DNA of 46,773 nt from Candidatus Saccharimonadota bacterium (GTDB lineage Bacteria > Patescibacteriota > Saccharimonadia > Saccharimonadales > UBA4665), in the NCBI GenBank assembly GCA_027371845.1, contig DAHXLD010000013.1, positions 1 to 46,773 on the forward strand, written 5' to 3'. A program made the position numbers and the translations under genes. The stretch's first letter is position 1; each line of letters opens with the position of its first letter. This document shows positions 7,366-9,337 of the stretch, piece after piece. A model generated the notes under the pieces. That model made no database searches, was not told where the DNA came from, and saw only the letters and a program-made list of their open reading frames with translations.

Positions 7366-7413
7366 ACACAATATATAGCGTATTGCATTAAAGTTAAGCG
7401 CTATATATAATAA
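7366..7413 (+). promoter_or_regulatory. Predicted tandem NrdR-like operator (two boxes, 32 bp between box starts) over the glutaredoxin-trxB promoter
   Basis: Box 1 ACACAATATATAGCGT at 7366-7381 (15/16 to ACACwATATATwGTGT from memory); box 2 GCGCTATATATAATAA at 7398-7413 (11/16). ATATATAGCG/CGCTATATAT form a 10-bp inverted repeat. TTGCAT(7383-7388)-N17-TATAAT(7406-7411) promoter lies inside. Confidence 0.65.
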
Positions 7414-7462: not shown

Positions 7463-7711
7463 ATGCCAAAAAAAATTACTATTTTTACTACTAATACGTG
7501 TAGCTACTGCCACATGGTCAAGCGTTATCTTGGATCAAGAGGCATTGGTTACGAAGAGGTTAATCTTGATCTTAATCCCTCAAGACAAGAAGAGGCTCTT
7601 AAGATTTCTGGAGCTTTAACGGTTCCGGTTACCGTAGTTACTAAATCAGATGATTCAAAAGAAGTTATTGTTGGATATAATCTATCAAGATTAGTCCCTG
7701 CAATATCTTAA
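7463..7711 (+). CDS. Glutaredoxin / NrdH-like redoxin
   Basis: 82 aa; 'ITIFTTNTCSYCHMVKRYL' CxxC and 'LTVPVTVV' cis-Pro; RBS GAGGG. Confidence 0.92.
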   Translation: MPKKITIFTTNTCSYCHMVKRYLGSRGIGYEEVNLDLNPSRQEEALKISGALTVPVTVVTKSDDSKEVIVGYNLSRLVPAIS

Positions 7712-7736: not shown

Positions 7737-8669
7737 ATGAATAATATTTACGATCTAGTTATTATTGGGGCGGGCCCAGCTTCATTAAGCGCCGGTATTT
7801 ATACTTCTAGAGAAGATATCAACACTTTGATACTTGAGAAGGGAGTTATTGGTGGAATGGCCGCTATTACCGATAGAGTCGATAATTACCCAGGCTTTCC
7901 AGATGGTGTCGGGGGAATTGAGCTATCAGATAATCTTCAAAAACAAGCCGAAAGATTTGGGGCTAAAATCGACTATGATGAAATTATCGAAATAAAAGAA
8001 GACGGTAAGTTTAAAGAGGTTGTTGGTCAAATAGCTAGTTATCGGGCTAAAGCTTTACTTATTGCTACCGGAACAGATTATAAGAAGTTACATGTTCCCG
8101 GAGAAGAAAAATACTTAGCTCGAGGGGTTCATTATTGCGCGACTTGTGACGGAGCCTTTTATAGAGACAAAAAAATTGTGGTTGTCGGAGGAGGAAACTC
8201 AGCGGTTCAAGAAGCTATCTTTTTGACTAGATACGCATTTCATATTGACTTGTTGGTAAGATCTACCATTAAGGCTAGCGATGTCCTAATTAAAGAACTT
8301 AATAAGTACGTTAAAGACAATAAAATTACTATTCATTTAGGAGTGACTGTCAAAGAAATTGTAGGAGGGGATAATAATCTCGTTAAAGAAGTGACAGCTG
8401 TCAAAGAATTAAAAGAATTTACTATTAAAACTGACGGCGTTTTTATCTTTATTGGACTTCTGCCAAATACTAAATTCTTAAAGAATATTGATTTAGATTC
8501 CTTGGGTTTTATTAAAACTGACTTAAAGCTTCAAACTAATATTAAGGGTGTATTTGCTGCTGGAGACGTTAGAAGTGGGGCTACTATGCAAATTGCGTCA
8601 GCGGCCGGCGAGGGAGCTACGGCTGCTCTTATGATTAGAGAATACATCGAACGCTATAAAAGGTTTTAA
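7737..8669 (+). CDS. trxB: Thioredoxin-disulfide reductase
   Basis: GAGPASLSAGIYTSR FAD motif, CATCDGAFYRDK redox centre, GGGNSAVQEA NADPH motif. Confidence 0.96.
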   Translation: MNNIYDLVIIGAGPASLSAGIYTSREDINTLILEKGVIGGMAAITDRVDNYPGFPDGVGGIELSDNLQKQAERFGAKIDYDEIIEIKEDGKFKEVVGQIASYRAKALLIATGTDYKKLHVPGEEKYLARGVHYCATCDGAFYRDKKIVVVGGGNSAVQEAIFLTRYAFHIDLLVRSTIKASDVLIKELNKYVKDNKITIHLGVTVKEIVGGDNNLVKEVTAVKELKEFTIKTDGVFIFIGLLPNTKFLKNIDLDSLGFIKTDLKLQTNIKGVFAAGDVRSGATMQIASAAGEGATAALMIREYIERYKRF

Positions 8670-9337
8670 TAACCATCAAAATAATCTAGTATTATTTTCG
8701 AGCGATCAAGTGTGCTCTTAAGTTTAGTGGCTTTATCTTCAACCATTAGTTGTGGCCCTGATAGGTATATTAAGTAATCTTTGAAATGATTATCTTCTAT
8801 AAGTTTTAAAATAGCTTTGAGCTCAAATTCTTTTGAAGAGTTATAAAGAAAGATATTATCAACTACTTCTCGATAACTTTCTAAGTCGATCATTTCTTCT
8901 GTCCGTGCAATGTAATAGATATAGATAGGTCTTTTTTGATTAGTAATCTTAAGATGCTTCATGATGCTTAAAAGAGGTGTAATCCCTATTCCAGCTACTA
9001 TAAAAATTAATTTTGTCTTTTGGGACATGGGTAATACAAAGTCGCCCATTGAATCATAAACATCAAGTTCAGTTCCTTTTTTAATGGTTTGTAAAGATTT
9101 CTTAAAGCTTGATGACTTCTCGCTATCCGGATGTTTAGTTGTAAACTCTAAGTAATCCTCTTCTGGGGCTGAAGATAAGGTAAACCACCGAACTAGACCA
9201 CGATTGTCGGGATGAGGGTGACTATAATGAAACTCAGAGTACTGGCCGGCTAAATAGTTAAAATTAGCTGGTTTTTCAAATCGATAACTAATTATATTAT
9301 GAGCTTTTTTAGTTTTAGATATAAACTTTATTTTCAT
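8666..9337 (-). CDS. Ferredoxin-NADP+ reductase-like FAD/NAD-binding oxidoreductase
   Basis: 'RWFTLSSAPEE' FAD motif, 'FIVAGIGITPLLSIMKHL' NAD motif, 'YLSGPQLMVE'. Confidence 0.88.
   Translation of the reverse strand: MKIKFISKTKKAHNIISYRFEKPANFNYLAGQYSEFHYSHPHPDNRGLVRWFTLSSAPEEDYLEFTTKHPDSEKSSSFKKSLQTIKKGTELDVYDSMGDFVLPMSQKTKLIFIVAGIGITPLLSIMKHLKITNQKRPIYIYYIARTEEMIDLESYREVVDNIFLYNSSKEFELKAILKLIEDNHFKDYLIYLSGPQLMVEDKATKLKSTLDRSKIILDYFDGY

Follow-up and report, generated by a model that had tools for sequence, protein, structure and literature searches.

The analysed window, a stretch of 46,773 nucleotides, corresponds to contig C9 of a Saccharibacteria MAG that comprises 530,004 bases in 19 contigs and is ~66% complete. 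It carries a two-gene unit encoding a glutaredoxin-fold protein (grx) and a thioredoxin reductase (trxB), preceded by a predicted promoter and by two boxes that resemble binding sites of the repressor NrdR. The features of this locus are as follows:

7366..7381, + strand: putative NrdR box 1, ACACAATATATAGCGT, 15/16 to the consensus ACACwATATATwGTGT
7383..7388, + strand: predicted -35 element, TTGCAT
7398..7413, + strand: putative NrdR box 2, GCGCTATATATAATAA, 11/16 to the same consensus, following box 1 after a 16-bp spacer
7406..7411, + strand: predicted -10 element, TATAAT, inside box 2
7463..7711, + strand: 82-aa glutaredoxin-fold protein with a CSYC active site (Pfam PF00462, 59 bits)
7737..8669, + strand: 310-aa thioredoxin reductase TrxB with a CATC site, second gene of the unit (TIGR01292, 314 bits against a cut-off of 343)

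The glutaredoxin scores best against the NCBIfam models for YruB (56 bits) and NrdH (49 bits), in both cases under the cut-off; with 48.8 bits against the 85.75 bits demanded by the NrdH model TIGR02194, a strict NrdH identity was rejected. Since its scores fall under the cut-offs of the NrdH, YruB and glutaredoxin-3 models, the protein was assigned to none of these families. TrxB is encoded on the same strand as the glutaredoxin in 79 of 80 related loci. In known thioredoxin reductases, the 2'-phosphate of NADPH is bound by the motif HRRxxxR. This motif is missing from the TrxB of the window, which has an LVRSxxKAS-like sequence instead; at loci L200-L279, HRR was found in none of the 79 TrxB relatives scanned, the motif region being located in part of these only. 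On sequence grounds, this TrxB may use NADH or another donor. A flavohemoprotein-reductase-like FAD/NAD oxidoreductase is encoded convergently with trxB on the minus strand (8666-9337), the stop codons of the two genes overlapping by a few bases.

The two boxes begin 32 bp apart, and the promoter is interleaved with them: the -35 element begins 2 bp past box 1 and lies 17 bp from the -10 element. The positions of the strong first box and the weaker second one, as well as the TTGCAT-N17-TATAAT promoter with its -10 element in box 2, reproduce the original prediction. The TTGCAT element is weak and was not listed by a generic promoter scan because it agrees with TTGACA at only 3 of 6 positions; it corresponds, however, to the conserved TTG(A/C) of orthologous promoters. 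Box 1 is the sole match to ACACwATATATwGTGT in the window when up to two mismatches are allowed (one observed against a mean of 0.06 in shuffled sequences, with any match in 6 of 100 shuffles), and the sole zero-mismatch match to the looser pattern ACACNATATATNGNGT in the 530-kb assembly, where the remaining sites have two mismatches. Box 2 is a weak palindrome and unremarkable alone, its weight coming from spacing and conservation. Taken together, the pair agrees with the consensus at 26 of 32 positions, a score that was never reached when the upstream region was dinucleotide-shuffled 100 times. The facing arrangement of the two boxes also accounts for a 10-bp inverted repeat, ATATATAGCG/CGCTATATAT; its reading as a hairpin or terminator was rejected, no terminator-like site being detected there.

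Conservation of the pair was assessed in 80 grx upstream regions, of which 79 belong to orthologs in a collection of genomes at species level and one is that of the window. In 75 of the 80 regions, the best box pair outscores 99 or more of 100 shuffles, as compared with 1 of 160 control windows and none of 30 regions upstream of trxB, in line with the expectation that the boxes would be kept in orthologous promoters. Together, the shuffles and this conservation rule out a chance match as the origin of the boxes. A 16-bp spacer is best in 41 regions and a 17-bp spacer in 34 (75 of the 80), box 1 shifting by one base; the distance between the -35 and -10 elements is constant at 17 bp. The TTG of the -35 element is kept in more than 90% of aligned promoters with a 16-bp spacer, TATAMT is conserved as the -10 element, and RCGCTATATATA of box 2 is found at the same spacing in orthologous promoters. 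In congener G035 (L204), box 1 is perfect (16/16). The exact matches to the 14-mer CACAATATATAGYG that were listed for 93 family genomes number 56; of these, 55 precede this glutaredoxin gene on its strand, as judged from the coordinates by eye. Genome G007 has an extra full grx-type box pair and promoter, including an exact box, in the vicinity of a transposase-like ORF (L086, G007:C3:31344); no glutaredoxin gene follows there. A search of 380 genomes across the phylum with a strict whole-promoter pattern and zero mismatches matched two family members only, and says little about wider spread.

Part of the conservation of box 2 reflects the promoter itself, given that this box overlaps the -10 element, and one could regard the whole as an unusual core promoter or as a site bound by some unrelated redox regulator, resembling NrdR boxes in the AT-rich core only. 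We consider this very improbable. Box 1 lies outside the -35 and -10 elements, yet is well conserved, and the listed exact matches, roughly one for each genome, fall at a single gene. Neither the ACAC/GYGT ends, nor the spacing of 16-17 bp, nor the occurrence of the same pairs upstream of nrdR-nrdJ would be explained by a core promoter.

The last observation comes from relatives, as neither nrdR nor a ribonucleotide reductase (RNR) gene was found in the ~66%-complete assembly. The presence of nrdR, on which the original prediction depended, is thus not seen in the genome itself but is well supported for the family: NrdR occurs in 89 of 93 family genomes, including all 53 near-complete ones, and the RNR barrel domain in 83 of the 93 and 51 of the 53. 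In two congeners, the gene order is ftsA, ftsZ, nrdR, nrdJ, a thioredoxin-like gene, bL21, and parA. A query with ftsZ, the thioredoxin-like gene, bL21, and parA retrieved all four in both congeners and none in the assembly studied here; because these neighbors are missing too, the simplest reading of the nrdR/RNR absence is an assembly gap that removed the whole ftsZ–parA block. The product of the gene right after nrdJ in both congeners (L173:2967-3239, L174:7032-7313) is a 90-93-aa thioredoxin-like protein without CxxC, and its L174 copy matches no model of Pfam or NCBIfam.

Similar boxes at nrd genes, also anticipated, were found in both congeners, where the region upstream of nrdR-nrdJ carries the pair ACACTATTTGTAGTGY-N17-GCGCTATATRTAGCAW, the individual pairs being ACACTATTTGTAGTGC-N17-GCGCTATATATAGCAT and ACACTATTTGTAGTGT-N17-GCGCTATATGTAGCAA. 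Sites matching one pair pattern lie directly upstream of nrdR, according to their coordinates, in at least 27 family genomes. In 30 of 32 regions upstream of nrdR, the best pair is spaced by 17 bp, and 17 of the 32 outscore 99 or more of 100 shuffles. Boxes of the same type are therefore present at RNR genes of the relatives, the RNR genes of the studied genome lying outside its assembly. These pairs, along with the 75 conserved ortholog promoters, support the reading of the grx site as an operator to which NrdR would bind.

The family encodes a second candidate binder. NrdR2, a divergent paralog of NrdR, is the main rival for the grx boxes and would allow a division of labor in which NrdR acts at nrdJ and NrdR2 at grx-trxB. 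Almost every family genome encodes it. The protein retains the zinc ribbon (PF22811, 45.5 bits) and the WRRR patch, whereas its ATP cone has diverged too far to be recognized by Pfam. However, a 16-bp palindrome that overlaps the NrdR2 start codon, TGWCAATATRTWGWCA, is conserved in 26 genomes. It has the core of the NrdR box, but its ends are TGAC/GTCA where the box has ACAC/GTGT; NrdR2 thus probably has a specificity of its own. The grx boxes agree instead with the nrdR-nrdJ boxes and with the published NrdR consensus. If TGWCAATATRTWGWCA is the site of NrdR2 itself, its specificity differs from the grx boxes and NrdR is favored at grx; we judge binding by NrdR2 to be unlikely. The NrdR2 proteins (L175-L180, L280-L299) have 132-137 aa and are encoded beside thrS and a glycosyltransferase gene in the loci read. 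The sequence TTWTCCACTAG lies ~36 bp upstream of TGWCAATATRTWGWCA at the NrdR2 start, and the NrdR2 mRNA may be nearly leaderless.

The grx site agrees with known NrdR biology in both its geometry and its promoter overlap. For four NrdR proteins from three phyla, the optimal spacer is 15-17 bp, equivalent to three helical turns between box centres (PMC12051234), and the 16-bp spacer at grx falls within this range. NrdR boxes overlap the polymerase site (PMC12176259); at grx, the predicted -35 element just past box 1 and the predicted -10 element within box 2 are both conserved. Specific binding of NrdR requires dATP plus ATP or ADP (PMC12176259). We consider it highly probable that the element over the grx–trxB promoter is an NrdR operator. 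By analogy with the biochemistry of NrdR proteins from elsewhere, this zinc-ribbon/ATP-cone repressor would, at high dATP levels, bind as a tetramer to both boxes, three helical turns apart, and cover the -35 and -10 elements lying between and inside them; its occupancy would block transcription of grx and of the downstream trxB. The same repressor presumably controls nrdR-nrdJ, and under such common control the RNR and the grx–trxB pair would rise and fall together.

The RNR of the congeners belongs to the B12-dependent class II (NF005122/NrdJ_Z, 1349.8 bits against a cut-off of 859). A six-cysteine C-terminal motif, for example CYNCGNQTQRSGSCYVCTSCGSTTGCS, occurs in 28 of 32 RNR sequences, the remaining four of which look partial or represent a different RNR; in the congeners, the NrdJ_Z/PRK06556 match and the six cysteines together identify a class II NrdJ with a cysteine-rich domain. 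The Stackebrandtia NrdJ, which has a C-terminal zinc domain, showed no turnover in vitro with two thioredoxins and one glutaredoxin of its own host, and its native electron donor was not found (PMC5704485). Because of the shared apparent NrdR control, the Grx–TrxB pair is a candidate donor for NrdJ, and the proposal that the glutaredoxin is the RNR reductant, put forward in the original prediction, is strengthened by this co-regulation and by the adjoining trxB. Nevertheless, we regard the step from TrxB and glutaredoxin to NrdJ as evenly balanced, given that redox pairs may be co-regulated for other reasons and that other glutaredoxin-like proteins are encoded in the family genomes.

In particular, NrdR may control grx-trxB while the glutaredoxin serves as a general thiol reductant rather than as the NrdJ donor, the co-regulation then meeting needs of growth or redox balance. 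This explanation, to which we give somewhat less than an even chance, draws on the failure of the Stackebrandtia enzyme, with its similar C-terminal domain, to accept electrons from its own Grx or Trx (PMC5704485), on the sub-cut-off NrdH score of the glutaredoxin, and on the thioredoxin-like protein that the nrd operon has of its own, even though that protein lacks CxxC. It fits less well with the position of TrxB next to this particular Grx, with the lack of an exact box at other glutaredoxin genes among the matches listed for the 93 family genomes, and with the NrdR control of NrdH-type redoxins within nrdHIEF in other bacteria (PMC12176259).

At least 13 family genomes (L089, L105, L106, L182, L126, and others) also have NrdR-like box pairs ahead of mraZ, at a distance of ~150-260 bp. 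Of 30 mraZ upstream regions, 10 beat shuffles, and a few best pairs fall on MraZ repeats instead. No such pair was seen in the genus studied here, and the mraZ region of the studied genome (L172) is without one. After many of the pairs come a DnaA-box-like CTGTGGATAA, a hairpin resembling a terminator, and GTGGGT repeats (MraZ boxes); because of CTGTGGATAA and the hairpin, the target of these pairs is ambiguous.

The proposed operator can be compared with several known systems. It shares with those of E. coli nrdHIEF and Streptomyces nrdRJ the two 16-bp palindrome-like boxes, the spacer of 15-17 bp, and the promoter overlap, and in Saccharibacteria relatives nrdR lies beside nrdJ as it does in Streptomyces. 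In contrast to both, the target is a grx-trxB unit located away from the RNR genes, and the boxes favor GCGCTATATATA halves. The glutaredoxin resembles NrdH, the class Ib RNR reductant, in being a small CxxC redoxin under apparent NrdR control, with trxB adjoining here; unlike NrdH, it scores far below the family cut-off (49 against 86 bits), is encoded outside the RNR operon, and would have a class II partner. The enzyme type and the six C-terminal cysteines are those of Stackebrandtia NrdJd, for which the native reductant was not found, whereas the redox pair described here appears to share the repressor of NrdJ (PMC5704485). An NrdR box at a non-RNR gene is known from topA of P. aeruginosa, where a single box is associated with activation (PMC4409342), as opposed to the pair over the promoter at grx.

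Among the papers searched, none was found on NrdR together with Saccharibacteria or Patescibacteria, and grx–trxB appears from its sequence to be a new NrdR target in Saccharibacteria. A wider scheme is possible but doubtful, in which an NrdR network in Saccharibacteria joins the class II RNR to TrxB and glutaredoxin as a dedicated reductant, the missing donors of NrdJ with a cysteine-rich domain, and reaches the mraZ cell-division cluster in many genera, the paralog NrdR2 having diverged from it with a TGAC...GTCA operator of its own. The pairs upstream of mraZ point to a possible link between dNTP supply and cell division. The box pairs described here would give an NrdR regulon for Saccharibacteria, and for NrdJ with a C-terminal zinc domain, a type in which the obvious donor candidates failed in one enzyme, the operator, conserved and apparently shared, singles out one particular Grx–TrxB pair as candidate donor.
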